DNA of 64,000 bases from positions 43,775 to 107,774 of IMG/VR virus record IMGVR_UViG_3300050015_000656; one strand, 5' to 3'. Below are positions 2,117 to 31,084 of this stretch, piece by piece. A model generated the notes under the pieces. It saw only the letters and a program-made list of their open reading frames with translations, did not search any database and was not told where the DNA came from. The DNA is from a virus. Position 1 is the stretch's first letter; each line of letters begins with the position of its first letter. Both the position numbers and the translations under genes were made by a program.

Positions 2117-2124
2117 ATAAATAC
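2117..2124 (-). promoter_or_regulatory. GTATTTATA motif
   Basis: Minus-strand GTATTTATAATAAAA, 12 nt before the start at 2104. It overlaps the stop codon of the upstream fibre gene, so 1661-2104 may have its own transcript in addition to read-through. Confidence 0.5.
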
Positions 2125-12402: not shown

Positions 12403-13242
12403 TTATTTAAGTCCTTGTATTAATGTATCGCCATATTTAATGCCATCATATCCCATATGCTGTGCTTTTTCGGCAATTGCTTTATTTTTTAAGTTAATTG
12501 GTGGAACTTTATATTGTTCACCTAATTTTTCAAAGTTTACGTGCGGAAACCATGCTTTAGCAAGTACTTCTGCAGGTATTTGGCTGTCCTTATACTCGAT
12601 GCCTAAGTCATTGGTATCAAGTAAGTTTTCAAAATCAATCTGATATTTAATAAATCCTTCAACAGGTGTTAATGTAAAGAAATTTCCAATGACGGACCTT
12701 TCTTTAATTGGTTCTCTACGATACGCAATTATCGACTGGTCATTTTTGCTTGGATTTTCTGATTCAACGCCTGCATTATTTTCTTCAAGTGCTGAAAGAA
12801 ATTCATTGTAGCTTACACCTGAGTTTGTTTGATTATTTGCATTAAGAACATCCTGTCCGACCACTTCTTCCATTTTCTGCACTTCGGTATAGTCATAAAC
12901 GTCCTGTATTTTATTTAAAAGTCTGCAGGCATCTTTAAATTCTAAGTCGATTTTAATTGCTGTCAACGGTAAGTTATCTGTTGTGGCAAAAACATACCGA
13001 TGATGCCCGTCACAGATGGTATTTTCTTTATCAAGCCAAATTGGATTCATATCATTTGGCTTTGCTTTTTCAACATCATCAGAAAAAGTAAATCCTTGTG
13101 ACACATTTAAATTTTTTAACTCTTCTGGACTAATTTGAATGTATTCATAATCAACACCCTCCTCATCGAGTTGTTTCACGACAGCATCAACAGGTGCGCT
13201 AATCTGTGGCAAATAGTACGGCTTGTGTTTCATTCTTATCAT
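12403..13242 (-). CDS. ParB-like and ADP-ribosyltransferase-like two-domain protein
   Basis: 279 residues. Residues about 15-105 resemble a ParB/sulfiredoxin-type domain with MNPIWLDKENTICDGHHRY, where DGHHR corresponds to the conserved DGxHR box. A middle, polar linker follows (about 125-160). The C-terminal part ends in NKAIAEKAQHMGYDGIKYGD, a phrase found near the end of many ART-fold and phage-delivered toxin domains, although no complete R-S-E or H-Y-E triad is clear. The start overlaps the stop of the nuclease 13239-13982 (ATGA). A modifying protein acting on host or phage proteins is possible. Confidence 0.5.
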   Translation of the reverse strand: MIRMKHKPYYLPQISAPVDAVVKQLDEEGVDYEYIQISPEELKNLNVSQGFTFSDDVEKAKPNDMNPIWLDKENTICDGHHRYVFATTDNLPLTAIKIDLEFKDACRLLNKIQDVYDYTEVQKMEEVVGQDVLNANNQTNSGVSYNEFLSALEENNAGVESENPSKNDQSIIAYRREPIKERSVIGNFFTLTPVEGFIKYQIDFENLLDTNDLGIEYKDSQIPAEVLAKAWFPHVNFEKLGEQYKVPPINLKNKAIAEKAQHMGYDGIKYGDTLIQGLK

Positions 13243-13982
13243 ATTACTGACAAATTTTTTAATTCACATTCTAATGCTTCTTTAACAGTGCCTAATACAG
13301 AATAAGGTATTTTAATTAATTTATAGCCATTGTTAATAGCATAATTAATTTTAATTTTGTCACGTTTTTTTGTATCCAATAAAGCATTGTCACCACCAAA
13401 AAAATCAACAGATTTATAATGTTGAATTCCATCGAACTCTATGAATATTTTATGTTTGGGTAGATAAAAATCATAATATAAATTCGAAACAGATTTTAAA
13501 TTATTAAATGTTACTTCACGCTCAAAGTTAATGTTGTGTTTCAACAAAATATTTGCTATTTGTTCTTCATTATGTGAAGCACGACATTTTCTACATCCAT
13601 ATCCATGTAAATGTGCATGGGGCGTTTGTTCAAATTTACCATGCTTATTACAAATAATCGTTATTTTGTTTTCATATCCACCATATTTTACTAACGAATA
13701 ATCAAATCTATTGCCGTGCATTTCTTTTGCTTTTTCAATAAAAGTTTCATTGGTGAACCTATTTTCTTTTGAGATTTTTTCGTATTGACATTTCTTACAC
13801 CCATATCCCGTTAAATGGTCATTCGGTGTTTGCAAAAATTCTCCATGTTTAGTACAAATAATAATAACTTTATTTTTGTTGCCAACATACTCAACTTTCG
13901 AATAATCATATTTATCACCATGTTTATTTAGTGATTTTAATATGAATTCTCCTGTGTTTGATTTTTTTGTTGACCTAATCAT
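13239..13982 (-). CDS. Vsr/PD-(D/E)XK homing endonuclease with zinc repeats
   Basis: 247 residues, paralogue of 6823-7515. Two repeats (FILKSLNKHGDKYDYSKVEY and FIEKAKEMHGNRFDYSLVKY) each end with a Cys pair (GCKKC, GCRKC). The nuclease domain has YDFYLPKHKIFIEFDGIQHY, and LIKIPYS. It leads its transcript, with a perfect GTATTTATAGTAAAA motif at 13997-14004, and its TGA overlaps the ATG of 12403-13242, so the mobile gene now carries the promoter for the genes behind it. Confidence 0.8.
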   Translation of the reverse strand: MIRSTKKSNTGEFILKSLNKHGDKYDYSKVEYVGNKNKVIIICTKHGEFLQTPNDHLTGYGCKKCQYEKISKENRFTNETFIEKAKEMHGNRFDYSLVKYGGYENKITIICNKHGKFEQTPHAHLHGYGCRKCRASHNEEQIANILLKHNINFEREVTFNNLKSVSNLYYDFYLPKHKIFIEFDGIQHYKSVDFFGGDNALLDTKKRDKIKINYAINNGYKLIKIPYSVLGTVKEALECELKNLSVI

Positions 13983-15070: not shown

Positions 15071-18000
15071 TTATTCTACTTCGGTTACTTTTCCTGTTAA
15101 TATCAATGGTTCACTCAAATTTACCCACATGCTTAATTGATTTGACATCATTGGTTTACCACCCTGTGCACGATTTACGGCAATAGTTATATGTGGCTTC
15201 TTATTCTTTGTGAGATATTTATCCACCACCACACCAACTGCCATAACCATATCATCCATAGAAAATTCTGTGGCTTCCATAACAATAGTCATGCCCAAGA
15301 ATTTCAAATACTCTGGAGCAATCGGACCTAAGTTCATTGTCATGTGATGTGCAATAGTTTCCCAACCTTCGGGAATCATATTACCAAGTCTCTTAAGCAA
15401 TGCTGTACGGGATTTGTCATCAAGCACCACGGCAGTATATTTCACATTTTTATTCATGTCTTCGTCAAGTACTTCGTTATCAACTAATTTGTGATATAAA
15501 TCGTGTTTTAATTTTTCATCATGGCTGAAATCCTCATAATTATTCTGTAAGAATTCCAATACGGATTTATCTGATGCACTTTCATATCCACCTTGATTCC
15601 ACTCATAATATTTATCCGTAAAGAAATTAATATCAACCTGTTGTCCATTTACGTTCCAAGTAGGCTTCTCTTGACCTGTTTCAGGATAACTATATTCGTT
15701 AAGTGTAATTGGTTCGCCTTTAACATTCTCATAATACTCCGGATAAAAATTATATTGAGGATTACGTCTTTTTGCAGCTCTTAAGAAGTCATTAACAATT
15801 TTTATGTTGTCATAATCATATTCATCTGCAGCAAAATCATAACTACTGTCAGCCAAACCGAAATCATTTGTGCTTCCAATTCTGTTTACAAGCATCCATT
15901 CAGTCAAATAATTATACATGGCTTCTGTATCACCCTCAATAAATCCCAATGCTCTACCAATATTACCATGATTAAAATAACCGTCCTTTTGTGCAAGAAA
16001 TAAATTGCCCTCTTGGTCAATTATTCCTCTGACTCCCGGACCGATATTCCGTAATGATTTAGGATTTTCATATATTGGTGACTTTTTACCATTTCTATCT
16101 CTTACCATAGCAACTGGTTCTTCTTCCTGTGCCTGTACTGCACCCCTTGCAATCACGTCTTGTTCTGCACTCTGATTTGGCATGTTAAACATCCTTTCAG
16201 CAGCTTTATCGGCAATACTTTCATCTACACTACCGTCAAGCATAAGTTTATCGCCATCATTGCCTTTATGACCTTTCCAAGTATAAACCAATTCAGTACC
16301 GTTAAGCATTCTGTTCTTCTCGAATGGTTTAATGTACTTCTGTCCTTCTCCGGGTTTAACATACGCAATTGTAATATGTGGATGATAATCGGGGAATGCA
16401 CTTGTATGTGGTAATGCTTTCATTATCTCATTTAATTTTGTAAGTTCTGGAGATTCAACATCGAACTTAACAACATCAAACTTAGGATTACCAGTGAAAA
16501 ACGATATGCCCTTAATTCCTATCTTAATTGGTTCTATCGGCATATTTTTTTCAAACAAACTAAAGCAATCTTCTGAAGTTACTTCATCGTGAAAACCATA
16601 TAATATTGTAGTATGTGGTTCTGTTTCAATTCCATATCCTGGCTCGTCATAAACATCATCAGGAGAAATTATTGACGTAATTTTTGTCCAAATCGGAACG
16701 TCAAGAAACAACATCAGACATCCATATTCTATTTTGTCCGTGGGTTTTACTTCTTCCTTAATCATTTCGCCATTTTGTTTCGCCAAAGCTAATAAATCTT
16801 CACGATTATTCCTAACCTTATCTGCATAAACCTTTAGCAATAATGATTTTTGCATGTCGCCAATTGCCTTACCCTGTAAACCAAGTTGTGACAAATCATT
16901 ACCATTAACAGCTAATTCGTTGACAGTTTTAGGATATTTGCCCTGTTGAAATTCTTCTGAGGCTTTTTGAAGTCCCATTGGAATTATCTGACTCTGTAAT
17001 GCCTGTGGACTTAGCAGATACATATTATGTGCAATTGACCTATCGAGAACATCATGTGTTATGTCGGGTAATGTAAACGCTAATTCAAGTGCTTTAATTT
17101 CCTTATATGTTGGGATATCACCTTTGAGATTATTCTTGTAAAATTCCGAAGGACTCTGAACAGTACCAACTGCCAACAGATAAATAAATTCACCCATTGT
17201 TTTAACATCGGCAATTCTATCGCTAATCTGCTTTGGCTGTCCACCGAAAATCTGTTCATATAAGCCAGTATTCACAAGTAAATCCGCACCCATTTTCACA
17301 TTACCCTTCTTGATTATCTTATCGAATTCCGTTAAAATTCTCTCTGGTGCAATTTCTTTAACCCTCTGGGCATTTTCTTTTATCATCTGCATAGTCTGTG
17401 GCTCAATTGTAAACCCGAAACGTGATGCAAATTGTACTGCACGCAACATTCTCAATGGGTCATCACTGAATGCCTGTGGATTAACAATACGAATAATTTT
17501 GTTTTTAAGGTCTTCTTGACCACCAAATGGGTCAACTATATTACCCTCTGAATCTTTTGCAATAGCATTAATTGTAAAATCCCTGCGTTCCAAGTCTTTT
17601 TCAATCGGTAGTGCATGGTCAGACTTAACATCAAAACCTTGATGACCACCTTCACCCGTAGCTGTTTCAGTACGTGGAATAGCAATGTCAATATCATCGG
17701 TAGCACCCTTTGGCTTGAATTTCAACACACCAAATGATTTACCAACAGCATCTACACGACCATATTTGCCAAGAAGTTGTTCAAGTTCTTCAAACGGCAC
17801 ACCAGTAATAAGCACATCCAAATCTTTGGATTGTTTACCAAGAAATTCATCCCGGACCGCACCACCAACACTATAAATTTTACCACCAAGTTGCTCAACC
17901 TCTTGTTTGAAAGGCAAGTCTTGTAATGACATTATTTCCGCTTCGTTCATGACTGATTCTTCAAGTGCATTATCTCCATAAAAACGTATTGATTCCGCTA

Positions 18001-21000
18001 TGAATTCCATAGTCGGATTTTTTTCTTTTGCCAAAGATAAGAATTTTTCGTAATATGGCAACGCTTCTTCTCTTTTTGGTACAGTTTCCCAATAACTTGA
18101 ATGAAAGTTTCTTTTTTCTTCTGGATATAACGGTGCATTTGACTCTCCAACTAAGATGATATTATCTCTTTTATATCGTTGAACAGTCAAAAAATTAGTT
18201 GGTGGGGTTTTATCCCAATGTTCCTCATTTTCAATGACTCCCAAGCTATTGAGGGTATAGAGTAATTCGAAGTGTATAACAACACTTTTTTGTTCAGTGT
18301 ATAAGTTTCCTTCTTTGTCAACAACACCCCGGACATCACCCCAAATATTTTTCCAAGATTTCGGATTTTTTATTATTACCAACCCATTTTCGGGATTATT
18401 GTAAACGATATCTTCGGAATCCTGCTCCCTGTTGAACCTATCGTTGAATTCTGCATCAGGATTCGGAACATTAAACATTTTTTCCGCAGCAACATCCGCT
18501 ACACCTTCGTCAACACTTACTGGTTCTCCTTCAATAAAAGTATAATATTCTTCATAAAACTCATATTGTGGATTTCGTCTTTTTGTGGCTTTCAATATAT
18601 CAATTGCATTGTCATAGTTATGCGCATTTGAATTAATATATCTTGAAGAAATGTCCCCCAAACCGAAATTATTTGTTAAGTCAACCCTATTAAGTAATTG
18701 ATATTTATCTAATTCTGAATATATTCTTGCATCAATCGTGAATAATCCCAATGCTTTTGCTATATTACCGTGGGTAAATGAATAATCTGCTTGTGCAACA
18801 TATAGATTTCCATCTGTATCTGCGATTGCCCGTACATCCCTTTGAAATCTTTCTAAGGATTTGGGATTTTTATAAATTTGACTAACTCTTCCAATGGTAT
18901 CTACTACTTCTCCAACAGGTTCATTCGTATTTTTTTCTATCTCACCCTGTGCTTGAACGTCTTGTTCTGCATGTGGGTCGGGAATATTAAATGCTTTCTC
19001 AGCATATTTATCAGCCACACCTTCCATTTGATATTTCTTACCACCCGTAGGTTTGAAATTCTTCTTAAATGCAGTGTACATCAGACTTGAAATTCTTTCA
19101 GATTCTCCTTCTTCACTGATACTCTCTGTTCTTTTTCTGAAAAGCAATTCAACTTTATTTGCAATGTCATGGGCGTTATCGTATGTATAACCATAATGCT
19201 TGATAAGATAGCTTTCAACCCTTTCATGAAGTAAAATCCCTTCAAAGTCGTTTGGCTTTGTCAAATGTACGTCATCAACCCAAAGTTCGTCTGCTGGAAT
19301 GTGCTTAGCATATTTTTGCTGTGATTTTGGTAAGTCATAGTCAACCCAATGATTGCCACCTTCAACCCACTCAATAAAACCACTGTCACGCACTTCGTCA
19401 CCATTAACTGCATAAACGGGATTGACATCAATACCGTCATTGTATGTACGGATTAATTTCTTATCCAATTCATGTGTAGTATTGTCTTTCTCAATCTGTG
19501 GTTCACTTACAGGAAATTCTTCTTCGTGTATTGTGTTTTTCATTTTATCGAGATACTGCTCATAGTCTGTATCTTGAAATATTTCAGAAGTTTCTTCGTC
19601 TGGCTCATCGTATGCTTCTAAACCATTAATCTCATAGAAAGCATTCATTCTCTTTTTAAAATCATCAGTAATATCGACTTTGCCAATATAATGACCTTGT
19701 ACTGCCCTTCTGAATCTAACTTCTTTTAAATAAGTAAAATCACCTATTTCCCAATGAGAAATGTCCGCATCGGGTTTTTCGTTTATTTCATAAACATAAA
19801 AAACTCCCGGATTTTTACCGTGTTGCATAAACATCGAATACAGTCCCATTAAAGCACCACCAACACTTTTACTTGCAGCAATTTCTGGTGTTTCACTAAC
19901 CCAAAACGTATCATACTTATATATTGGATTACCGTCATCGTCAATTGCTTCGTAATAACCTTCGGGTTCAAATTCAATCGTTTCACCCATATATTTTTCA
20001 ACAGCACGATAATATTTTTCACCACCACTTGTTACCACTTCATTTATTGCAGTATTGGGAAGTCTGTACATCAACTGCATAGTCTGGAAGTCCTTATTCC
20101 TGCCTTTGTTCATGATAAATCCCAATGATTTATACCATGCAGTTAGTTTAGACTTACTTGCGCCCCACATACTATCGGGAGTTAATGTAACAATTAATTT
20201 ATTTCTGTCGGCATAGTCAAAGATAAGTTTCATTGCATCATTGGCATATCCTTTACCTCTGAATTCTTTGTTGATAAAAATTTTATCTATTGCGATGTAA
20301 TGATTCTGACCTTGAACGCCTCTGTCCATGATACCTACCTCACCAACGACTTGACCATCATCAGTTATCTTAAGCGAATCATATCCGCTTAAATTGTTTG
20401 GTAGATTAAGATTCACAGACTCTTTAATACTACCAAATGTCAAGTTGCCAATATCTCCTTGATTACAGGCAGTGCTTGTACCGTCACCATTACCACCAAG
20501 TCTGCACTTTTTCTTAACATCAACAGTTTTACTGCCAGATTGAAACGACTGAACTCTTTCTGTTATTTGAAATTCGTCTTGGGTTGCATCACCGACAACA
20601 TGGTTATATTCTAAGTCTTCGTTTACTTCACTGTTTGCGTTTAAATCGTTGCTTATTGAGGGTGAAGTGTCCATATTATTGTATGTTGGAAAATTATCTT
20701 GACCAAAACTATTGTCTGTCGAATATAATGCTGAACCGTCTTCGTCAACTTGAACAGGTTCTGGCATATTATTAGATTTAAAAAAATAATTACCAAAACC
20801 TACATCAAAAAATCCCAAATTACCATTTGGTTTATATCCTAAGTTATTTGGATTTGTATAATCTGTACTTTCTAAGCCGTATTTTTTTACTTCTTCGCCA
20901 ATTTTAAGTATTTTATCAAAAAATTCTCTGTCTTGTGGATTTCTTGCAAAGTATTTTTGAACCTTATCTTCATCCACATTGTCATCGCCAAAACGATTGT

Positions 21001-23137
21001 GTATGAAATGGTCAAGAACATCGCCATAGTTTGCACCCATTATTTTTTCAAACGCAAATTTCATTCTTTCAACTCTTGCAATAAAATCAGCCTTATCTGT
21101 TCTTAACTTCTCTAAGATTATCACATAAAGGTCATATCTCGTTTCGCCCGACAATGTATTAGACTTAATTGAGTAGACCTTATATGGTTGAGCAATGTAT
21201 TCTAATGGTTTACCAATAAGTTCAAGATTTTCATTTGCTTCGCTTTGGTCCTTAGTAACCTTTAATACTAAATTGTTTCCTATATCATATGCATAGCCAA
21301 ATACACCATCACCAAGAGGTTTTGGCTGACCATATCCAAACTTCTGTGCTACACTATTCGCCACTTTATTAGCGACTTCTCTCGGAAATCCTGTAGGTTC
21401 TTCATTCAGTACTTCTTCACCTTCGGGTAAAGAAATTCGGTTTTCTGGTGGTAAATCCGGTACAACTACACCCATGCATCCACCTATGTCATAGTATGTT
21501 AAAATACCGTTCTTATATCCCAAATTACTGAGAGTCATATAATCGTCTGACTTAATCATCAGTGCAAGTAATTCTCTTTTAATGTCATAGAGTCCCAACA
21601 TAAAACGATATGCCTTTTCTCTATCGCCTGCAGCAATATTAGCATCGGGATTTGCCGTTAAAATTAGTTTAGCTAATTCTGGAAAATCGTTAAATGTTTT
21701 TCCAAAAAATTCCGTATCTTCTTTCTTAGGTTTACCTTTGATTAAAATTCTCAATAACCTACCGTATAAGTCTTCACCGAGCGAATTAATTATTTCAGTG
21801 TATCTTTCAAATTCCTGATGTGGTTTATCAACAATATTGTCTTCGATAAGCGCATAAACTGCTTTGTTTTGTTCGGTGTCAGTTACCTTATACACATTGT
21901 AAACCATTGCAAGTGTTTTAGGCTTACCCCTGCTAATTTTTAAACCAGCATCGACCTCACATGCATCAGTAGTAATTTTTAAAACCCTGTTGTTATTAAC
22001 CTCATAAGCATATCCATATCCACCACCACCAAGATATTTAATAGCACCAAGATTTAACTTCTGTGCAACCGCATTAGCAAGAGTATCAGAATATTCTCTT
22101 GGTAATTGCATTGCTGCAACTTTTGGACTACTCTCATTTATTTCTACAGTTTCTTCCTCAAGTGGTTCTCTATCATAGAATTTACCTCTGATAAGATAGT
22201 CTTGAAGTTCCAATAAGTTACTATAAAATTTCTTTTTCTCAGGTACGTGTTCAAGTACTTCTTTAAGGTTGTTTACTACATCATGAAATTCATCGACAAT
22301 ATATGGAGCACTTGGAAGTTTTGATGTTGGATATTTGTCTCTGTTGAGTACAAATGAAATAAAATCTTCATTAATTACGCCAGGTCCGTCACCTACACCG
22401 TAAGGCATAAGTCCCCACATAGCTTGTCGGGTATCAACGGCATCTTGTGGTGGTAAATCACCAAGCATATCGTCATTACCATCGGCAAAGTTATAAAGTT
22501 CATACATTTGATACTTTTGGTTTTTGCCACTATAATGAGTATCTACAACTTCATCATTTAACCCATAGTCGGTTAAAACTATTGCAGGTTTACCGTTACG
22601 CAGTACTTCTCCAAAGGTACTTGGTCTACCCATATCGCCTGAGTTTTGAGCATAGCTTGCAACAAAATCGGCTAATGAAAATGCAAATTCGTTTTTATTC
22701 CAAAAAAATTCTTCAAGTTCGGGTGATTGTGGAAATATTTTCTTATGCCCCTTACTTAATTCTTCGGCATTCTTAAGAAACTCTTTTAAATCATTCAAAC
22801 TTGGAATACCTGTTACTTGTTTAATACGTGCTTCATTGACTTTCTTAGCCTTTTCTGCTATCAACCAAGTATCGTCATCCATAGAATCAATAACCTTTGC
22901 AAGTATATGATGATTGCTTTCAAAATATCCTGCACCTGTCTCTGCTTCGTTTTGACCAACACCTTTGGGGTTTTTCGCAAGTTTTAATACCTTTTCACCA
23001 TCAATGTCATAAACGATTCGACCACTACCACTACCAATTCTCGGTAAGTATTGATTTGCGTACTTTATTTTTCCATTAAATGATTTAATTTTAAGGAATT
23101 CTGGTAAGAAATTCGTTTTGAATTCAGCGTATGTCAT
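15071..23137 (-). CDS. Giant multi-enzyme protein: kinase-like, GNAT, ART-like, CCA-adding and 2H modules
   Basis: 2688 residues. Modules in order: three kinase-like folds (about 30-240 with GSGSGRIVYD and DYG; 365-560 with GGGGYGYAYE; 605-780 with GDGVFGYAYD), GNAT acetyltransferase (about 915-1020, EFRGKGYANDAM), ART-like (about 1035-1190), a putative HExxE region (about 1300, LLHERVES), two related repeats (about 1372-1535, 1541-1730), class II tRNA nucleotidyltransferase (about 1745-2080) with VGGAVRD, DLDVLI, RRDFTINAI, DPFGG and DDPLRMLRAV, a 2H phosphoesterase (about 2135-2290; HTTILYG, HPHITIAYV), a third repeat (about 2306-2475) and a C-terminal 2H-like domain (HHMTMN, PHITIAV). The borders carry INE, LNE, VNE, MNE or VDE. 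This fits a head-packaged polyprotein cut by a T4-type protease. A GTATTTAT motif lies at 23159. Confidence 0.75.
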   Translation of the reverse strand: MTYAEFKTNFLPEFLKIKSFNGKIKYANQYLPRIGSGSGRIVYDIDGEKVLKLAKNPKGVGQNEAETGAGYFESNHHILAKVIDSMDDDTWLIAEKAKKVNEARIKQVTGIPSLNDLKEFLKNAEELSKGHKKIFPQSPELEEFFWNKNEFAFSLADFVASYAQNSGDMGRPSTFGEVLRNGKPAIVLTDYGLNDEVVDTHYSGKNQKYQMYELYNFADGNDDMLGDLPPQDAVDTRQAMWGLMPYGVGDGPGVINEDFISFVLNRDKYPTSKLPSAPYIVDEFHDVVNNLKEVLEHVPEKKKFYSNLLELQDYLIRGKFYDREPLEEETVEINESSPKVAAMQLPREYSDTLANAVAQKLNLGAIKYLGGGGYGYAYEVNNNRVLKITTDACEVDAGLKISRGKPKTLAMVYNVYKVTDTEQNKAVYALIEDNIVDKPHQEFERYTEIINSLGEDLYGRLLRILIKGKPKKEDTEFFGKTFNDFPELAKLILTANPDANIAAGDREKAYRFMLGLYDIKRELLALMIKSDDYMTLSNLGYKNGILTYYDIGGCMGVVVPDLPPENRISLPEGEEVLNEEPTGFPREVANKVANSVAQKFGYGQPKPLGDGVFGYAYDIGNNLVLKVTKDQSEANENLELIGKPLEYIAQPYKVYSIKSNTLSGETRYDLYVIILEKLRTDKADFIARVERMKFAFEKIMGANYGDVLDHFIHNRFGDDNVDEDKVQKYFARNPQDREFFDKILKIGEEVKKYGLESTDYTNPNNLGYKPNGNLGFFDVGFGNYFFKSNNMPEPVQVDEDGSALYSTDNSFGQDNFPTYNNMDTSPSISNDLNANSEVNEDLEYNHVVGDATQDEFQITERVQSFQSGSKTVDVKKKCRLGGNGDGTSTACNQGDIGNLTFGSIKESVNLNLPNNLSGYDSLKITDDGQVVGEVGIMDRGVQGQNHYIAIDKIFINKEFRGKGYANDAMKLIFDYADRNKLIVTLTPDSMWGASKSKLTAWYKSLGFIMNKGRNKDFQTMQLMYRLPNTAINEVVTSGGEKYYRAVEKYMGETIEFEPEGYYEAIDDDGNPIYKYDTFWVSETPEIAASKSVGGALMGLYSMFMQHGKNPGVFYVYEINEKPDADISHWEIGDFTYLKEVRFRRAVQGHYIGKVDITDDFKKRMNAFYEINGLEAYDEPDEETSEIFQDTDYEQYLDKMKNTIHEEEFPVSEPQIEKDNTTHELDKKLIRTYNDGIDVNPVYAVNGDEVRDSGFIEWVEGGNHWVDYDLPKSQQKYAKHIPADELWVDDVHLTKPNDFEGILLHERVESYLIKHYGYTYDNAHDIANKVELLFRKRTESISEEGESERISSLMYTAFKKNFKPTGGKKYQMEGVADKYAEKAFNIPDPHAEQDVQAQGEIEKNTNEPVGEVVDTIGRVSQIYKNPKSLERFQRDVRAIADTDGNLYVAQADYSFTHGNIAKALGLFTIDARIYSELDKYQLLNRVDLTNNFGLGDISSRYINSNAHNYDNAIDILKATKRRNPQYEFYEEYYTFIEGEPVSVDEGVADVAAEKMFNVPNPDAEFNDRFNREQDSEDIVYNNPENGLVIIKNPKSWKNIWGDVRGVVDKEGNLYTEQKSVVIHFELLYTLNSLGVIENEEHWDKTPPTNFLTVQRYKRDNIILVGESNAPLYPEEKRNFHSSYWETVPKREEALPYYEKFLSLAKEKNPTMEFIAESIRFYGDNALEESVMNEAEIMSLQDLPFKQEVEQLGGKIYSVGGAVRDEFLGKQSKDLDVLITGVPFEELEQLLGKYGRVDAVGKSFGVLKFKPKGATDDIDIAIPRTETATGEGGHQGFDVKSDHALPIEKDLERRDFTINAIAKDSEGNIVDPFGGQEDLKNKIIRIVNPQAFSDDPLRMLRAVQFASRFGFTIEPQTMQMIKENAQRVKEIAPERILTEFDKIIKKGNVKMGADLLVNTGLYEQIFGGQPKQISDRIADVKTMGEFIYLLAVGTVQSPSEFYKNNLKGDIPTYKEIKALELAFTLPDITHDVLDRSIAHNMYLLSPQALQSQIIPMGLQKASEEFQQGKYPKTVNELAVNGNDLSQLGLQGKAIGDMQKSLLLKVYADKVRNNREDLLALAKQNGEMIKEEVKPTDKIEYGCLMLFLDVPIWTKITSIISPDDVYDEPGYGIETEPHTTILYGFHDEVTSEDCFSLFEKNMPIEPIKIGIKGISFFTGNPKFDVVKFDVESPELTKLNEIMKALPHTSAFPDYHPHITIAYVKPGEGQKYIKPFEKNRMLNGTELVYTWKGHKGNDGDKLMLDGSVDESIADKAAERMFNMPNQSAEQDVIARGAVQAQEEEPVAMVRDRNGKKSPIYENPKSLRNIGPGVRGIIDQEGNLFLAQKDGYFNHGNIGRALGFIEGDTEAMYNYLTEWMLVNRIGSTNDFGLADSSYDFAADEYDYDNIKIVNDFLRAAKRRNPQYNFYPEYYENVKGEPITLNEYSYPETGQEKPTWNVNGQQVDINFFTDKYYEWNQGGYESASDKSVLEFLQNNYEDFSHDEKLKHDLYHKLVDNEVLDEDMNKNVKYTAVVLDDKSRTALLKRLGNMIPEGWETIAHHMTMNLGPIAPEYLKFLGMTIVMEATEFSMDDMVMAVGVVVDKYLTKNKKPHITIAVNRAQGGKPMMSNQLSMWVNLSEPLILTGKVTEVE

Positions 23138-23184: not shown

Positions 23185-23206
23185 AAAGGACATCTTACTG
23201 TCCTTT
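23185..23206 (-). terminator. Terminator that contains a stop codon
   Basis: Minus strand: AAAGGACA-6 nt-TGTCCTTT then CTTTTT. The TAA of 23195-24007 lies in the stem-loop, so the last codons form one arm. Confidence 0.75.
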
Positions 23207-24007
23207 ATTTTTGTTTTTGTTTTGTAATTCTCGTATGGTTTCGTAAACCACCGATTTTATCATTTCCTTATTCTCTGTAAGCACTTCTTTGATTCTTTCA
23301 ACAGCATACATTTCAAGTATGGTTGACTTAATGGCTTCCTCCACAATCGGACCGAAGTTTTCCATGAGATAGTTATTCACTGTTCTCTTTACACTCTCAG
23401 TTAAATAACCCTCATTAATCATTGGCATACCATTGTTTCCGAATGACACTGCAGGTGGATTTAATAGACTTCCATCAGGATTAACGGGTTGTCCCTTGGC
23501 ATTGTATAGCTGATTTGCAGCCATTGCTCTATTGTTATTAAAACCTTCGATAGATTCAGCAAGAGTTCCATTATTACCTGCCACACCAACACTTCTGAAT
23601 TTTCTTTGAAAATCACTGAAGATTGCATCGTCTCTTTCTGGTCCCATTCCCATATCGGCTTCATTAATTCTTCCCGGCTGAACATACTGTGGGGGTTGAT
23701 TGTGTTGCGGTGCTGCAGGAGCAACATAATTTGTAGAATTTTTTAATTCCTTAATTTTATTTATCGCTTCAGGTGTTACGACACCACTTTTAACTGCGCC
23801 ACTAATAATGTCTGCCCTTTCATTCATTGTCTTTATATTGTTCACAACAGGAGTATTCTGACCTGTATGAAGTGATGTAAGCAAGCTATTTAGGAATACA
23901 TCTTTTGCAGGTATTGTAGTACCTTGCATTGTTTCACCAAGAATGCCTTTTTCCTTTTTGCGGGTATCTATCTCAGTTCTGAGTTTATTTAAATCGGGTT
24001 TTGCCAT
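23195..24007 (-). CDS. Putative prohead core or packaged protein
   Basis: 270 residues, polar and helical, with a Pro/Gln-rich middle (NYVAPAAPQHNQPPQYVQP) and a helical C-terminus from about 200. It has two (I)-N-E sites, GRINEADMGMG (about residue 115) and PMINEGYLTES (about 200), matching the I/L-x-E cleavage rule of T4 gp21. This, plus its place between the giant protein and the next packaged-type proteins, suggests a head-internal or scaffold role. No sequence family recognised. Confidence 0.45.
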   Translation of the reverse strand: MAKPDLNKLRTEIDTRKKEKGILGETMQGTTIPAKDVFLNSLLTSLHTGQNTPVVNNIKTMNERADIISGAVKSGVVTPEAINKIKELKNSTNYVAPAAPQHNQPPQYVQPGRINEADMGMGPERDDAIFSDFQRKFRSVGVAGNNGTLAESIEGFNNNRAMAANQLYNAKGQPVNPDGSLLNPPAVSFGNNGMPMINEGYLTESVKRTVNNYLMENFGPIVEEAIKSTILEMYAVERIKEVLTENKEMIKSVVYETIRELQNKNKNKGQ

Positions 24008-24042
24008 TATCTTAAAATTATAAAATTTTATTATTTTTTATA

Positions 24043-24050
24043 ATAAATAC
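24043..24050 (-). promoter_or_regulatory. GTATTTAT motif
   Basis: Minus-strand CGTATTTATTATAAAA, 35 nt before the start at 24007. Confidence 0.45.
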
Positions 24051-24054
24051 GTGG

Positions 24055-24945
24055 TTATTTGAAAAAAGTCGGTTTATTTAGATTTTCTTGTGCAATATTT
24101 GTTCTATTTAATTCATTCACTGCATCACTTTCGGCATTTTTAAAAAATCCGACATCGGTTTGCTTCTGACTTGGCTGAACTAATTTCACGTATAAGTCTT
24201 TAAGATTTCCAACAACTGAATTAGGGTCAATGCTTTGTAACTGATTCTCTGTTTTCAATACCATATCGCCATTCTCTGTACTAACCACCCAATATTTTGC
24301 TCTTGAACCACCTGCTCTCATCTGATTTACCATACCCCACAGATGTTTAACTTCATCGGCAGTAATATCTCTTTGTTTTTTAGCAACATTTGAGAAATTT
24401 CTGAACTTATTCTTTTGTCCTGCAAATGCAGATGGTTGTGGTTCGGGAAGTTTTTGTGCAGTAGTATTACCCACAACATTTGTTTGTGGTTCACCGCTAT
24501 CTATTTGTACTGCAGCCACAATGCCCGTCATTTGGGAATCATTGGGGTTATATCCTTCGGGAAATTTATCTTTGTTTGTACTGAAAATTTCACCTGTCGG
24601 TAAAAAGGATGTAATTTTATCTACTCTGAATAATCTCCATCCGGGTTTAGCCTTTCCCTTTTGATTATAATATACTTTCCTACTGTCGGTGTTACCTGCT
24701 TCCTGCCATGCACGAAGTAACATATATCCACCTTCCGCTTGTGCTTTCTGTGATTTACTATGACCCAATACCATTGGCATTATTGTTCGATAACCTTTCA
24801 TAATGGTGTCATCACCAGCATAATATATGTGAACATACTTATGCTTATTAATAGCATCGGCAATAGTACCCTCTCCAACACCTTCATTTAAAAGTTGCCT
24901 GAAGTGAGTCAGGGTTTCCAAGAATATTTTAGCCTCACTTAACAT
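24055..24945 (-). CDS. WYL-like domain protein with capsid-targeting-like N-terminus
   Basis: 296 residues. The first 21 residues form an amphipathic stretch that ends FRQLLNE, followed by GVGEG. This resembles the capsid-targeting peptides of T4 internal proteins, removed after (L/I)-x-E. Residues about 30-115 resemble a WYL-type SH3-like domain: HKYVHIYYAGDD, then YRTIMPMVLGHSKSQ, LLRAWQEAG and GWRLFRVDKITSF. The remainder is low complexity and helical. WYL domains bind nucleic acid or nucleotides in transcription and defence regulators. A phage protein that enters the host with the DNA is one reading. Confidence 0.5.
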   Translation of the reverse strand: MLSEAKIFLETLTHFRQLLNEGVGEGTIADAINKHKYVHIYYAGDDTIMKGYRTIMPMVLGHSKSQKAQAEGGYMLLRAWQEAGNTDSRKVYYNQKGKAKPGWRLFRVDKITSFLPTGEIFSTNKDKFPEGYNPNDSQMTGIVAAVQIDSGEPQTNVVGNTTAQKLPEPQPSAFAGQKNKFRNFSNVAKKQRDITADEVKHLWGMVNQMRAGGSRAKYWVVSTENGDMVLKTENQLQSIDPNSVVGNLKDLYVKLVQPSQKQTDVGFFKNAESDAVNELNRTNIAQENLNKPTFFK

Positions 24946-24946
24946 C

Positions 24947-25186
24947 TTATGCTGTTCCTGCGTTGTACTCTCTGTTACGGTTGAATTTGTTTTTAGCTAT
25001 TAAAGTTTTTCTTACTTTAATGTCAGTTGCACCGCCAACCTCACCATTTACTTCGCCCTTACCTTGCTCGTCACCAGTTGACAAAGCATCTGGGTTTCCT
25101 GCATTATATGGGTCGTTGTTATCATAGTCGTTTTTAGCAACTAAGTTTTTTCTGAATGGTACGCTGATATCTTCTAATCTGCTCAT
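24947..25186 (-). CDS. Small protein with an internal duplication
   Basis: 79 residues. Two similar segments, FRKNLVAKNDYDNNDPYNAG and VRKTLIAKNKFNRNREYNAG, flank a Gly-rich linker, so the protein is a tandem duplication of a 20-residue unit. It is the first gene after the motif at 25218-25225 and ends 2 nt before 24055-24945. The basic, Asn-rich repeats may bind a surface or nucleic acid. Function unknown. Confidence 0.5.
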   Translation of the reverse strand: MSRLEDISVPFRKNLVAKNDYDNNDPYNAGNPDALSTGDEQGKGEVNGEVGGATDIKVRKTLIAKNKFNRNREYNAGTA

Positions 25187-25217
25187 TTTATTTTGTTTTA
25201 TATCTCAATTATTTACT

Positions 25218-25225
25218 ATAAATAC
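25218..25225 (-). promoter_or_regulatory. GTATTTATAGTAAA motif
   Basis: Minus-strand TTGTATTTATAGTAAATA, 31 nt before the start at 25186 and directly beyond the stop of the Nudix gene at 25228. Confidence 0.55.
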
Positions 25226-25227
25226 AA

Positions 25228-26013
25228 TTAATCGTACTTTTTAAACGATAATGTTATGTATTCAATCAAATTTGGTACAATGTCCAGGTAATGCATTTCA
25301 TCCACATCATACCAACCATAGTTTGTGTTTTCGGCATTATCTAACTCAATTTCAGTTGGGTCGCCCTCATATCGACAAGCAAAAACTGTTTCAATGCTCT
25401 CAGGATTCCTTTGTATTGTGAAGGTCCTGACAAACTTATTAATTTCCAACCCAATTTCTTCAAGTATCTCTCTCTCAATAGCACGCTGTGGAGTTTCACC
25501 CTTCTCAATAGCACCACCAACCAATGCCCATTTCTCCGGCATCCAAGGTGCTTCTTTGCCTCTTTTCAACAGTAAAATCTTATTGTCGTTATTTACAATA
25601 ACTGCAACGGCATTTTTTTGTTTTTCTTCTTTCTTCTCTTTCTTTTCTTCATTCAGTGTTGGCATGGGACTATTCGGCATTAATTCTGAATTAGGATTTG
25701 ATGTCATATCCTGCTTGGTTTCTTTTGACCTTGCCACACCTGCTCTATCTTGTGCTAATGAAGTTTCAATAAACTGTCTCATTGCTTCCCCACCAGCAAG
25801 GGCATATTGTGTTTTATCATCAGTCTGTGGATTAAAATAATCAAAGAAGTTTTTAAGTCTTTTCATTGCTTGATATGTTAAATTACCGTTCTTAAGAATG
25901 AAATTAGCACGTTTAAGACCATTTTCATTCGAAGTGGATGCTTTAGCCACCGCAATACCATTAAGTACATTTGAGGGTATCCTATATGTCTTATCTTTGA
26001 GATATTGGTTCAT
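25228..26013 (-). CDS. Nudix hydrolase fused to a virion-type N-terminal domain
   Basis: 261 residues. The C-terminal domain (about 130-261) has the complete Nudix box, GGAIEKGETPQRAIEREILE followed by EIGL, so it should hydrolyse a nucleoside diphosphate linked to another moiety. The N-terminal 110 residues are helical and contain YRIPSNVLNGI and AGGEAMRQFIETSL; this region resembles domains in other virion-associated phage proteins. The two parts are joined by PTLNEEKKEKKEEKQ, which holds an LNE site, so a head protease could release the free enzyme. The N-terminus overlaps the end of the upstream nuclease by 23 nt. Confidence 0.8.
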   Translation of the reverse strand: MNQYLKDKTYRIPSNVLNGIAVAKASTSNENGLKRANFILKNGNLTYQAMKRLKNFFDYFNPQTDDKTQYALAGGEAMRQFIETSLAQDRAGVARSKETKQDMTSNPNSELMPNSPMPTLNEEKKEKKEEKQKNAVAVIVNNDNKILLLKRGKEAPWMPEKWALVGGAIEKGETPQRAIEREILEEIGLEINKFVRTFTIQRNPESIETVFACRYEGDPTEIELDNAENTNYGWYDVDEMHYLDIVPNLIEYITLSFKKYD

Positions 26014-26710
26014 ATGCTTCTAAGATTTTGTTTATTCTGTTGATTTGGTCAAACTTTATTCTCAATAGAAAGTAGTTGTTTGATTCTGCAAAAGTATTTT
26101 TTATTTCATCGTTAATTTTCTGGATTCTAAACTTATCAAGTCCACCGAAATGGTTATTAGCTATAAAGTGTTGTGCACCATCAAACTCTATTAATACGTT
26201 GTTCTCTGGAAGAAAAAAATCGAATGCAAGTTTATTTATATTTTTACAGTCATTAAATTTTTTCTCTCTTTCAAAAGCAATTGAATTATTTATTAAATAT
26301 TTTGCAATCTCTCTTTCTCCGATAGATTCTGTACAACTGGGACAACCACATCCTTTTAAATGAGTATTTGGTTTTTGATTAAATTTTCCATGAATCGGAC
26401 ATAATATTTCTACATAAATATGTGCTGTTATATAGTTAACATTAGAATAATCATATCTATCTCCGTGAATTTCTTTTGCTTTAGTAATAAAATAATCAGT
26501 ATTTTTTCTTAATTTCATTTTACCACACAATGGACAACCACAACCCTCTAAATGAGTATTTACTCGCTGTATGAATTCGCCATGTGTGGGACATGATATG
26601 ATAATATTATCGTGTGTATGTTTAAAATCAACCAAATCATACTCATAATAATTATTGTGCACAGCATTTGCTTTAGCAATAAACGCATCTATAGTTAATA
26701 TCCTTGCCAT
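25991..26710 (-). CDS. Vsr/PD-(D/E)XK homing endonuclease with zinc repeats
   Basis: 239 residues, paralogue of 6823-7515. Repeats FIAKANAVHNNYYEYDLVDF and FITKAKEIHGDRYDYSNVNY carry the Cys pairs GCPLC and GCPSC. The nuclease part has AFDFFLPENNVLIEFDGAQH and LLRIKFDQINRI. The start overlaps the stop of 26710-27333 (TAATG) and the end runs 23 nt into the Nudix gene, so it is inserted with almost no intergenic DNA. Confidence 0.8.
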   Translation of the reverse strand: MARILTIDAFIAKANAVHNNYYEYDLVDFKHTHDNIIISCPTHGEFIQRVNTHLEGCGCPLCGKMKLRKNTDYFITKAKEIHGDRYDYSNVNYITAHIYVEILCPIHGKFNQKPNTHLKGCGCPSCTESIGEREIAKYLINNSIAFEREKKFNDCKNINKLAFDFFLPENNVLIEFDGAQHFIANNHFGGLDKFRIQKINDEIKNTFAESNNYFLLRIKFDQINRINKILEAYEPISQR

Positions 26711-27333
26711 TACTTTGCTTCGAGTAGATTTTTCAGTTTATCTTTAGATTCTTTATCAAGTTTGTCAATCAGGTCAGCAATTTTTTCAAGTTTCTTGTCG
26801 CCAATTTCTTTATCCTTGCTTTTACTTGCCATTTCATCTTCACTACGTTTCTCGATAACCCTATCTTCAACAACCGTAGCCTCATCAAGATTTTCAGGTT
26901 CTTTAAATGCATCTTCAAAGTGTTTTTCAACTACCTTAACAATTTTTCTTGCCCATTGGTCATCGAATTTCTGACATTCCTCAGTATGTTGACCCTCAGA
27001 TGATTTTCTATAATCTGGCTTTAATTTATTTGGATTTCTGTAGTAATGACCTAAAATATCAATAAATCTTTCGTGCATAAGTTGTGACAGGTCACGGAGT
27101 AATGCTTTTTGTTGTGAATTTTCTTCTTTTCCTTCCATGAATGGAAACATAGAAAAGCCAAAGCGACCCAACATATCATATCGAAATGGTTGTGTGCCTA
27201 TTTTGGCATTAATGTCAGTAGTACCATTGGCTGCAGTTTCTAAATCAGCACCTGATGTAGGCACGTCATTTTTTCCAATTAGGTCACCGTTAGAGTCTAT
27301 GATTTCTAATAATTCGCTCTTTTTGAATTTCAT
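26710..27333 (-). CDS. Hypothetical acidic protein, possibly packaged
   Basis: 207 residues, acidic and Lys-rich. The middle (about 75-145) is helical with LMHERFIDILGHYYRNPNKL and WARKIVKVVEKHFEDAFKEP; the rest is a charged helix with DKKLEKIADLIDKLDKESKD. A site NLDEATVVEDR may be a cleavage site of the head protease type (LDE). A GTATTTATA motif at 27350 fits virion expression. Function not seen. Confidence 0.45.
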   Translation of the reverse strand: MKFKKSELLEIIDSNGDLIGKNDVPTSGADLETAANGTTDINAKIGTQPFRYDMLGRFGFSMFPFMEGKEENSQQKALLRDLSQLMHERFIDILGHYYRNPNKLKPDYRKSSEGQHTEECQKFDDQWARKIVKVVEKHFEDAFKEPENLDEATVVEDRVIEKRSEDEMASKSKDKEIGDKKLEKIADLIDKLDKESKDKLKNLLEAK

Positions 27334-27388: not shown

Positions 27389-30300
27389 TTATTCCGGACC
27401 ATCGCCACTATCATCGTAGCCAAAATCTGCAGCTTCTTCTTCCTGTTCGCTTTCCATGTTCTCCACATAAGTGTCGAATGCACCCATTGCTTCGGGTACT
27501 TCCACGAAAAGTTTATCCATAGTTATGTGTGCAGGAAGTCCAAATTGTTTCACAAAGCCGGGGAAGTGTAATATTCTTTTTTCTATCTTAGCTTTTAAAT
27601 ATTTATCCTTCTCAGTTTCAACATTAGCCTCTTCGAGATTTTTCAGTTTTTCTTGCTGTTCTGCTCTTTTTGTATCAAGTTCAAGTTCGATTTCACTCTT
27701 AGGTACTTCAACATTGTCTCTGATAATTTCCATGAAAATACCATTGAATTTACCCACATGATATTGGCTACCATCCTTAACGAGAACTAAATCACCCTTA
27801 TCATATTTGTCATTAATTGACTTGATTTGTGGTTTACCGCTTGCTACCATTTTGTCGTTCAAGAACTTCAAAGCACCTTCGTAAATTTCGTAGTAAACTT
27901 TATCGTCTTCGTGCATCTTAAAACCATTCCACACAAGTCTTGGGTCATATCCGGTCTTATTCCAGAATTCCACTTCTTTAGGTTCGAGATACATTGAATC
28001 ATCATAATCGTCACTGTCAAAGTTTTTAAGTTCGAGTTTTCCTGGTTCGTAACTACATTTAGTTATTTCCTCAATAGTACTTTTGTTGCCAAACTCATCT
28101 TTGACTTTCTTTTTCACAATCTTAGCAAGCATTGTATTAATTACCTCATCCTCAAAGCCAACAAGTATTGAACTAACTCTGCTGTTAAATGCATCAAGGT
28201 ATTTCACGACATTATAATAACCTGTCATTGTGGGATTCTCTTGAAGTTCTTCTGCACTAATTAAAGTAGATGCAAACCTGTCTTCACCAGTATCTTTGTC
28301 CTTAATTGTAGCTGAACTACCGTGAGACTTCAAATAACCTGTATTAACTTGGTATACAACAGAATCTAATTCGGGTTCGGGTGGCATATAATTAGCCACA
28401 AGTCTTAATTTATCGTCCGATGTAAGTTTTTCTTCCTGCTTGGTGAAATTAATCTCTGCCTTATACTTTTCGAAAAGCGCATCAGCAATTCTATGACGTT
28501 TCTGTAGTAATAACTCCATGTGTGCTTGCATTGCCTTATCCCTACCGTTCTTATCCTTACCTCTTTTCATGTAGGCATTTAAAGACATTTTAACCCTGTT
28601 CTTGGTTGCGATTTTCTTCAATGGAATTCTCTTATAGTATATGTCATCGACATAATCGTAGTAGTAATCAACAAACTCCTTACCCTTACCGTGGAGAATA
28701 AGTTCGAAACCTTTGTCAATGAATTCTTCGATATACTCAGGCATTACTTTGGACTTAATTGTATTACCAGTGAGTTTGACTTTCTCTTTCATTTCACCTG
28801 TCTTTTTGTCTTTAACATTCGACAAGGTTGCATAGTTGATACGTGAAAGGTTCAAGCATGAAAGGAATTCACCGTCATTATCAACCGACATGTACGGTAA
28901 TTTCATTTCCTCAGTGTTAAACTTTTTAATAAGTGCAGAAACACCTGTTTTACCACCATACTGCCACATATCCTCAATTAATCCCTCAGTTATTCCCTCA
29001 GTTATTCCCTCATCGGTAACTCTTATTGTGGTCCTGTCAGGAATATGGAAGTTTATACCGTCTGTTACAGCAAGCAATGCAACACAACCAAAACGATTGA
29101 ACCATGTGATTGCATGACGAAGTTCAAGACGACCTGCACAAGTAATACGAGCTGCACAAGTATTGTCCGACCAGTTGAATGACATATCCGAACCCAAAGC
29201 ACCGAAAAGTGAGTTGTTCAAAATCTTAATAGGCAACTGCTTAACTTTAAACATTGCACGGTCCGCAGTGGTGAGAGTATCACTCAAATATTTTTTATGA
29301 ACGTCAGGGTCAATCAGTTGTATCAACATAAGTTCTTCCTCGTTCAGTTTATCTGAATTTGCAAGTTTCTTATAAATGTTACGAGTAGTTGTAAGATACA
29401 ACAACATTTTTCTGATAACACCCGTGATGTCGAACATCGGGAATATGTTCCAAGTTAACTGGAGCATAGGGTAAAGTGATGCGTAGTCAATCTTAACAAG
29501 TCTCTGTGTAAAACCAACCTTATAACATCTTGCAAGACCACCCGAAAAGTTTTCTTTCACATCGGAATGTGGAATAGCAAGGTCATTCTCATAACTCCAT
29601 GCAGTCAAAAGTAAGTTCCAGATTGCAGCCGTACCCATAGTACAAACTCTCTGATAGGTAGTTGGTACAATCTTAGCCAACATGAATGCTGACTGATTAT
29701 AAAGTTCATCGACCTGTTCTGTTTCCCAAAGGTCATCGAGCAAGTAATTCTTAACAAGATTTTTACCACCGATAAAGGTTGTCATTTTCTTTGGGGCAGC
29801 TTCTGCTCTGAACCACTGAACAAATCCCGGACATTCATCAAGGCATTGAGTTCTTAATCCAGCATATTCTATATCTGAAAGATTGGCTTTATTTGCTTGT
29901 ATTCTGTATAATCTTCTTGAACATGTTTGAAATTCATCGGGTATCTGCAAATAATCGTTGGTTTCACTGACAAGAAACATTTTATTTTCAGTATAGTATC
30001 TGCCGATTGCATTGTCTTCTCCGGGAATATATGTTCTGTTCGGTCTGGCAATCTTCTCATGCTTGGCGATATACTTCAAACCATTTGCTTTGATTTCCGT
30101 GTTTACTGCAGCGGTTTTCTTAACAGCATGAATGATATCAATGACTGAAAGTCCCCACATTTCGGTTGCAGTAAACTTCTCAGCAGTATTACCATATTTT
30201 ACTGAAACATTGGGTCTTCTTTTAATATAGGTGTCTTTCTTTAATGTGGTTTGAAGTTTACCCATATTCATTTTGAGTTCCTTTGCCCTACCGAGAATAA

Positions 30301-31084
30301 AATCAAAGTCAAATCTCTCTGAATCATATCCACTGATAACCGCAGGTTGAAGATAAACTACCAAGTTAAAGAAGTCCTGTATAAGTTTTATTTCGGCATC
30401 GTCATCATTCGACTTCTCAACTTCTAATATTGTTTCAAAGCCACGATTGTCTCTTACACCAATGGCGAAAACTCTTGCTCTCTGGTATCTTAAACCTGTG
30501 GTTTCAATGTCAAAAGTAACCTTATGAACTTGTTTATATTCTTCGAAACCTTTAAAGAGTCTTGATTGTGTTGAAATAAAGAACTGTTCAACTATTCTTG
30601 GTGCATAAAAGAATTCCCTGTAAAGATAAATTGGTTCACCCTTTGCATCCTTAACCTCATTACCGTCTTCGTCATGAAGTTTTTCATATGGATAAACTCT
30701 ACCGTCCTTTAAAAACTCAATAATGTGATTATATGATTTGCTGCTTGTTATCTTGAAACAATAACCATTTTTCATTCTCTTATGACCACCAGTCTTAAGC
30801 GGGGTAATTGTTATACCATGCTTAATCATCATATTAGGAAGAATGTCGGGGTCATGGGCATATAACTTTAACTTGTTTGGAGTTAAAGACAAGTCCTTCA
30901 TGTACATGAAAGGAATATATGTTACAGGACGTATTTCGGGAGATTTGCCTGGCTCATGTATAATACACTGAGCAATATTGGTATCGGGGTCGGTTTCAAC
31001 GTTAACCAAATACTTTAATTCGTTATTATAGCCGTCAAGGAATTCCTTGATTTCGGTAATAATTGCCGATTTGTTTTCTACCAT
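27389..31084 (-). CDS. Family B DNA polymerase
   Basis: 1231 residues, longer than T4 gp43 (898). Exonuclease motif I is VTFDIETTGL (about 190-200) and motif II YDSERFDFDFI. Polymerase motif A is IDYASLYPM, motif B is the KxxxNSxFGxLG form with KILNNSLFGALGSDMSF, and motif C is LLAVTDGINF instead of the usual YxDTDS. A small tandem repeat, EGITEGITEGLIED, follows motif C. The C-terminus is acidic. Near-adjacent to 31087-31446 and the helicase, forming the replication group. The extra length lies mostly in the thumb and C-terminal part. Confidence 0.9.
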   Translation of the reverse strand: MVENKSAIITEIKEFLDGYNNELKYLVNVETDPDTNIAQCIIHEPGKSPEIRPVTYIPFMYMKDLSLTPNKLKLYAHDPDILPNMMIKHGITITPLKTGGHKRMKNGYCFKITSSKSYNHIIEFLKDGRVYPYEKLHDEDGNEVKDAKGEPIYLYREFFYAPRIVEQFFISTQSRLFKGFEEYKQVHKVTFDIETTGLRYQRARVFAIGVRDNRGFETILEVEKSNDDDAEIKLIQDFFNLVVYLQPAVISGYDSERFDFDFILGRAKELKMNMGKLQTTLKKDTYIKRRPNVSVKYGNTAEKFTATEMWGLSVIDIIHAVKKTAAVNTEIKANGLKYIAKHEKIARPNRTYIPGEDNAIGRYYTENKMFLVSETNDYLQIPDEFQTCSRRLYRIQANKANLSDIEYAGLRTQCLDECPGFVQWFRAEAAPKKMTTFIGGKNLVKNYLLDDLWETEQVDELYNQSAFMLAKIVPTTYQRVCTMGTAAIWNLLLTAWSYENDLAIPHSDVKENFSGGLARCYKVGFTQRLVKIDYASLYPMLQLTWNIFPMFDITGVIRKMLLYLTTTRNIYKKLANSDKLNEEELMLIQLIDPDVHKKYLSDTLTTADRAMFKVKQLPIKILNNSLFGALGSDMSFNWSDNTCAARITCAGRLELRHAITWFNRFGCVALLAVTDGINFHIPDRTTIRVTDEGITEGITEGLIEDMWQYGGKTGVSALIKKFNTEEMKLPYMSVDNDGEFLSCLNLSRINYATLSNVKDKKTGEMKEKVKLTGNTIKSKVMPEYIEEFIDKGFELILHGKGKEFVDYYYDYVDDIYYKRIPLKKIATKNRVKMSLNAYMKRGKDKNGRDKAMQAHMELLLQKRHRIADALFEKYKAEINFTKQEEKLTSDDKLRLVANYMPPEPELDSVVYQVNTGYLKSHGSSATIKDKDTGEDRFASTLISAEELQENPTMTGYYNVVKYLDAFNSRVSSILVGFEDEVINTMLAKIVKKKVKDEFGNKSTIEEITKCSYEPGKLELKNFDSDDYDDSMYLEPKEVEFWNKTGYDPRLVWNGFKMHEDDKVYYEIYEGALKFLNDKMVASGKPQIKSINDKYDKGDLVLVKDGSQYHVGKFNGIFMEIIRDNVEVPKSEIELELDTKRAEQQEKLKNLEEANVETEKDKYLKAKIEKRILHFPGFVKQFGLPAHITMDKLFVEVPEAMGAFDTYVENMESEQEEEAADFGYDDSGDGPE

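Follow-up and report, generated by a model that had tools for sequence, protein, structure and literature searches.

Predicted prohead-protease sites in a candidate head-cargo gene row, with a giant multi-enzyme protein, of a T4-like large phage

The two kinds of phage protein closest to the locus described here are already known: the polyvalent proteins, found in phages and conjugative elements, and the T4-type internal head proteins that carry a targeting peptide. For polyvalent proteins it has been proposed that an embedded peptidase frees the domains, in comparison with the polyproteins of RNA viruses (PMC5512222). The T4 prohead protease gp21 cuts after L/I-x-E (PMC9026906); in phages phiKZ and SPN3US the inner-body and ejection proteins are processed after Glu by the gp175/gp245 protease, a diverged relative of gp21 (PMC5694885). 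Nudix and 2H domains that occur in fusion with head proteins have been interpreted as packaged (PMC9503650), and domains of the Nudix, 2H, tRNA nucleotidyltransferase, GNAT and WYL kinds have been considered as means of opposing host nucleotide signalling and RNA damage (PMC5512222, PMC9503650). Here we describe a row of genes, 26710 - Nudix - (24947) - 24055 - 23195 - giant, that probably encodes cargo for the head of a T4-like large phage, made to be processed by its own gp21-type prohead protease.

The window analysed is a stretch of 64,000 nucleotides, positions 43,775-107,774 of a 107,774-base contig from an uncultured virus; its features are collected in Table 1. The row is wholly minus-strand, its genes succeeding one another as polB (27389-31084), 26710, 25991, Nudix (25228-26013), 24947, 24055, 23195 and giant (15071-23137); it adjoins polB and tail-type genes and lies outside the capsid operon. 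We compared it with about 35 related uncultured large-phage contigs, several of which are 200-365 kb long; 37 loci among uncultured viral contigs were matched by the Nudix protein and 6 by 24055, and the row order is preserved in the relatives examined. One contig of 299 kb (G001) encodes Nudix and 24055 proteins that are 100% identical to those of the window. A tblastn search of the phage collection with the Nudix protein, 24055 and the KKKC segment of the giant returned no close cultured relative with the row architecture; LR756504 and LR756502, the first matches for the giant, were set aside, since the corresponding place in them has only a tRNA nucleotidyltransferase as a gene of its own.

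Table 1. Coordinates of the row proteins, their modules and their candidate cleavage sites in the window
Feature	Coordinates	Strand	Basis
26710: 207 aa, one conserved site, cassette insertion place in relatives	26710..27333	-	sequence and homologs
26710 LDE site, aa 149-151	26881..26889	-	E in 31/32 homologs; L/I at P3 in all 31
25991, homing endonuclease	25991..26710	-	PHROG 559, 3.1e-62; absent here in most relatives
Nudix protein: helical N-domain, disordered linker, Nudix hydrolase	25228..26013	-	Pfam NUDIX, 1.3e-19; predicted structure; Foldseek to Nudix enzymes
LNE site in Nudix linker, aa 120-122	25648..25656	-	E122 invariant, 30/30
24947, 79-aa row protein without site	24947..25186	-	tied to the set by position only
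24055: targeting-like N-terminal peptide, then WYL-like domain	24055..24945	-	sequence, homologs, model, Foldseek
24055 first 21 residues, peptide ending LLNE	24883..24945	-	E21 invariant, 27/27; helix 3-19 modelled
23195: 270 aa, variable middle, conserved C-terminal domain	23195..24007	-	sequence and homologs
23195 INE site, aa 197-199	23411..23419	-	(I/L)NE in 25/27 homologs
Giant, 2688 aa, modular polyvalent protein	15071..23137	-	
Giant module 1 (aa 1-322), kinase-like by motif	22172..23137	-	G-loop, VLKLAK, DYG by eye
Giant INE site, aa 333-335, module 1/2 junction	22133..22141	-	
Giant module 2, kinase-like by motif	21440..22132	-	
Giant LNE site, aa 577-579, module 2/3 junction	21401..21409	-	weaker across relatives, 9/14
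Giant module 3, kinase-like by motif	20759..21400	-	
Giant conserved KKKCRLGG..CNQGDI segment, aa 841-895	20453..20617	-	ends in site, 23/24 relatives
Giant GNAT module	20072..20425	-	Pfam Acetyltransf_1, 3.8e-05, over cut-off
Giant INE site, aa 1031-1033, after GNAT	20039..20047	-	
Giant metallopeptidase-like module, HERVE at aa 1304	19118..19501	-	motif only
Giant MNE site, aa 1730-1732, before tRNA nucleotidyltransferase	17942..17950	-	
Giant CCA tRNA nucleotidyltransferase module	16790..17941	-	PHROG 2244, 1.8e-67; Pfam PolyA_pol, 3e-23
Giant 2H phosphoesterase-type module	16268..16750	-	Pfam 2_5_RNA_ligase2, 2.2e-06, over cut-off
Giant LNE site, aa 2479-2481	15695..15703	-	
Giant LDE site, aa 2557-2559, before C-terminal module	15461..15469	-	
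Giant C-terminal module	15074..15460	-	own gene in many relatives; two H-x-T motifs by eye

Not everything in the row belongs to the candidate cargo. The protein 25991 is an intruding homing endonuclease, has no [LI]NE in its sequence and lies outside the cargo set; it sits within the cargo row, overlapping the start of the Nudix gene, and is one of at least four paralogous homing endonucleases in the window (6823-7515, 13239-13982, 25991-26710 and 56987-57703). Homologs of 24947 in L019, L037, L038, L042 and L045 are enlarged by repeated units of their own sequence. Elsewhere, the SNF2-like helicase 31436 has homologs with large inserts of hundreds of residues, intein-like in size (L034:1715-4540, L040:459-3425, L016:211-4209), and at 2124-4976 and 42111-42842 of the window long threonine runs lie between the domains of putative tail/adhesin proteins.

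All the motifs named by the earlier note are present in the sequence, and those it placed in the Nudix protein, 24055 and 26710 prove to be conserved. The LNE between the domains of the Nudix protein (aa 120-122) lies in a disordered linker: the predicted structure has pLDDT <50 for residues 99-128, the site among them, with folded domains on both sides. This linker differs in length and letters among homologs and contains [LIM][NTSA]E in 30/30; E122, preceded every time by L/I/M-x, is the sole invariant residue from R90 to L147, and mean identity at the neighbouring positions is 0.33. The window's Nudix protein is also matched by the PHROG portal family 15528. In 26710 the LDE (aa 149-151) resembles the Nudix site in that the conserved Glu stands alone amid unconserved sequence, and four relatives carry at this site a cassette of about 75 aa whose far end bears another (L/I)(N/D)E; these cassettes were looked for in the other carrier proteins of the loci compared, and none was found. 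The two INE described in 23195 are both there, and they fare differently: the one at aa 197-199 is conserved, while the one at aa 114-116, present in the window, is not conserved among homologs.

The capsid-targeting-like peptide that had been proposed for 24055 ends in LNE at aa 19-21, preceded by MLSEAKIFLETLTHFRQL; E21 is one of the 15 invariant residues of the protein, with L/I at P3 in all 27 homologs, and E4 near the start is invariant as well. The structure model has a low-confidence helix (residues 3-19), the site, and then a folded domain; Foldseek places this domain closest to the WYL proteins PafBC, BrxR and CapW, in weak matches with E-values of at least 0.0045. CapW/BrxR-type WYL proteins act as regulators of bacterial defence systems, and for this reason a counter-defence role is an attractive one that 24055 may have. 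The 24055-like WYL proteins of the 636- and 735-kb phages were considered and rejected as counterparts; the N-terminal peptide is absent from them.

Judged by composition in the window alone, single motifs are mostly within chance: shuffling gives p = 0.13 for the [LI]NE of 24055, p = 0.35 for that of the Nudix protein, p = 0.27 for the LDE of 26710 and p = 0.03 for the two INE of 23195, while in the giant the count of [LI]NE is 7, where 2.2 would be expected (p = 0.01). Read by themselves, these mostly non-significant single occurrences would favour an origin of the motifs in chance or linker composition, but comparison across relatives puts the motifs far above chance. The Glu is invariant or nearly so in 27-32 homologs per family, shuffling the Nudix linkers leaves the motif in a mean of 4.9 where the real linkers have it in 30/30, and an unbiased tripeptide ranking of the giant with permuted-motif controls, given below, points the same way. 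On conservation, shuffles and permuted motifs together we reject an origin in chance or composition, which we regard as highly improbable.

The giant is the centre of this system and not an accessory to it. Giants of the relatives range from less than 800 to 2688 residues and differ in their module sets, and the C-terminal module and the tRNA nucleotidyltransferase are separate genes in some of these phages. The three kinase-like modules were assigned by eye from G-loop, VLK and D-x-G motifs; the H-x-T motifs of the C-terminal module, likewise read by eye, suggest that it is of the 2H type, and any role for the KKKC segment is a guess. ART-PolyVal is over the Pfam cut-off in the giants of two relatives (L044 and L040), not in the window's own giant, and this places the family among the polyvalent proteins (PMC5512222).

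Module boundaries in the giant were set blind to the motif: 30 dissimilar giants were aligned locally with one another, and the places where the alignments stop were taken as boundaries. Among 846 tripeptides, enrichment at these boundaries is highest for INE and next highest for LNE; [LIM][ND]E occurs no more than 8 residues from an alignment end at 3.2 times the random rate, as against 1.0-1.5 times for permuted motifs, these ratios being descriptive since alignment ends are non-independent observations. V/F/Y at P3 (2.2) and K/R at P2 (2.3) are also raised, which would be in line with a looser (L/I/M/V)-x-E rule, and control proteins from the same loci have no comparable excess (polB 0.92, helicase 1.23). 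Counted with the wider class [LIMV][NDSTAK]E, a site follows module 1 in 19/21 relatives, where the reversed motif reaches 3/21, and follows the KKKC segment in 23/24, as against 9/24 for the reversed motif, with the module next to this segment varying among phages; after module 2 the figure is 9/14 against 7/14 for the reversed motif. Relatives swap giant modules directly after a site. Around the tRNA nucleotidyltransferase, strict sites occur upstream within 25 residues in 15 of 24 cases and downstream within 40 in 12 of 24. Some junctions have no site or have V at P3, motifs also lie inside modules (aa 255, 1118 and 2235), and an early LPE in the giant's N-terminus (aa 11-13), considered for its targeting signal, differs among relatives.

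The giant of the window contains a metallopeptidase-like HExxE module, and self-release by such a module has been proposed by Iyer et al. (PMC5512222); the giant might accordingly be an ordinary polyvalent protein that stays one chain or releases itself, the capsid protease having no part in it. We consider this unlikely, because the module, recognised by motif only, occurs in just 8/30 giants and the sites persist without it, which leaves an embedded metallopeptidase unsupported as a general processor, and because self-release would account neither for the sites of Nudix, 24055, 23195 and 26710, which are proteins of their own, nor for these sites being identical with the motif of the capsid protein.

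That motif comes from the relatives. The window contig is a fragment in which no gp23 or S77 gene was found; G001 carries the same gene row plus T4-type protease, scaffold and capsid genes, and in G001 and its relatives these follow the T4 order of S77 (gp21-like) protease, scaffold and gp23-like capsid protein. In 7/7 capsid proteins MINE stands at the same place, aa 57-60, with S after it; T4 gp23 is cleaved after FLTE, and the position of MINE is near there. The capsid propeptide is thus predicted to end, on cleavage, in the same motif as the row proteins. In the gp22-like scaffold [LIM][ND]E is found at 4.2 times expectation, an excess that fits a gp22-like protein cut to pieces. Given the motif in this T4-type protease, scaffold and capsid set together with the gp21 rule, the motif of the row is the one expected of the phage's own head maturation.

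Some further features of these head genes deserve record. The gp21-like protease ORF (L080 = G001:C1:285000-299144; also in G002, G004, G005 and G006) has an insert of about 400 residues with intein-like ends (HPD/CVNAS...TGN/SSIISL); the protease of G003 has no such insert. Head-operon proteins of the 640-kb phages L006, L010 and L011 (LR756502.1, LR756504.1) contain arrays of 14-residue repeats of the SYxEY(I/L)AENLDKNI type, with an (I/L)AE motif in each. Flavobacterium phage immuto (L092, 100001-150000) is cultured, has a related capsid protein and is a possible laboratory model; its genes 183 and 192 encode multidomain proteins with several (L/I/M/V)-x-E motifs. Judged by the capsid protein (33%) it is the closest cultured relative; VSE, read by eye, stands at the aligned place in its capsid protein, and its scaffold too is rich in sites.

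Taken together, these results lead us to propose that the row encodes head cargo that is very probably cut by the capsid maturation protease. The precursors would enter the prohead core, 24055 through its 21-residue N-terminal peptide and the others by some part of their own; during head maturation the protease would cut after the Glu of (L/I/M)-x-E, a motif common to the capsid propeptide and the scaffold. The WYL domain of 24055, the Nudix enzyme and the giant's many enzymes would so be released as individual proteins, to be ejected with the DNA and to act early in infection. Cleavage itself, packaging, ejection and the target of each enzyme are steps that we infer, and since the protease acts in the prohead, cleavage and packaging would largely stand or fall together. 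Against the proposal weigh the position of the row away from the capsid operon, the junctions with no site or with V at P3, the motifs inside modules, and the reversed motif coming close to the site count after module 2. The earlier note had read these genes as a run of possible internal head proteins that includes the giant; the conserved sites, the match to the capsid motif and the sites at module boundaries support that reading, which has to be narrowed by removing 25991 and by noting that 24947 carries no site.

The proteins could also be cut by the prohead protease and yet be parts of the prohead core or scaffold, degraded and lost instead of delivered as enzymes. The same density of motifs in the scaffold agrees with this, as does the fact that no enzyme domain of 23195 or 26710 was recognised in Pfam or PHROGs; these two may indeed be lost by degradation, as scaffold-type proteins share the motif. 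Such a fate is improbable for the row, because the sites lie between intact enzyme modules and are not scattered throughout them, and the catalytic domains (Nudix, tRNA nucleotidyltransferase, GNAT and 2H) are conserved.

With the row taken as delivered head cargo, we lean towards viewing the head as a polyprotein-processing compartment, in which effector enzymes are encoded as exchangeable cassettes with a capsid-protease site at either end: a domain inserted between two carrier sites, as in the giant or 26710, would be packaged, freed and delivered, and the clade would vary its delivered set by cassette swaps at the sites. The open-access literature searched yielded no account of a polyvalent protein whose modules are separated by prohead-protease sites and exchanged at them. 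The arrangement suggests how polyvalent proteins could become separate active enzymes, namely through the capsid protease cutting within the head, and it allows the exact cut sites and mature enzymes to be predicted. With a conserved lone (L/I)-x-E between modules as a marker, packaged proteins can be sought in T4-like phages, and the early counter-defence set of these uncultured phages becomes listable; its modules (Nudix, 2H, tRNA nucleotidyltransferase and WYL, with ART in relatives) are of kinds linked to RNA repair and nucleotide-signal defence.

Each described system shares part of this design. As with Nudix domains fused to MuF, portal or capsid protease (PMC9503650), the Nudix domain here is carried by a putative head protein; unlike those fusions, its carrier is an unknown helical domain, joined to it through an invariant predicted cleavage site. 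Head proteins of phiKZ and SPN3US are likewise processed after Glu, where for our row the cutting is predicted from sequence; those phages have an S/A-x-E motif and remove long propeptides, unlike the row, and the phiKZ/SPN3US literature searched describes no chain of several enzymes that is cut into modules. With the T4 internal head proteins (IPI-IPIII and Alt), 24055 shares a short N-terminal peptide ending in (L/I)-x-E, of 21 residues as against about 10 in T4, together with the same protease family and motif (gp21). Kinship with IPI-IPIII or Alt was sought, and no such family appears in Pfam or PHROGs for any row protein; these families diverge fast among T4-like phages. In T4 each internal protein is made singly and cut once or twice, whereas here a multi-enzyme precursor has many predicted cuts. 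The giant is like the polyvalent proteins (PMC5512222) in joining unrelated enzyme domains (GNAT, tRNA nucleotidyltransferase and 2H, with ART-PolyVal in relatives) in one long chain; polyvalent proteins are thought to be packaged and injected, a fate that the giant may share. An embedded metallopeptidase, frequent in polyvalent proteins though not obligatory, may usually be absent from the giants, the motif being present in 8 of 30, and unlike those of polyvalent proteins the giant's modules are punctuated by predicted capsid-protease sites and exchanged there.
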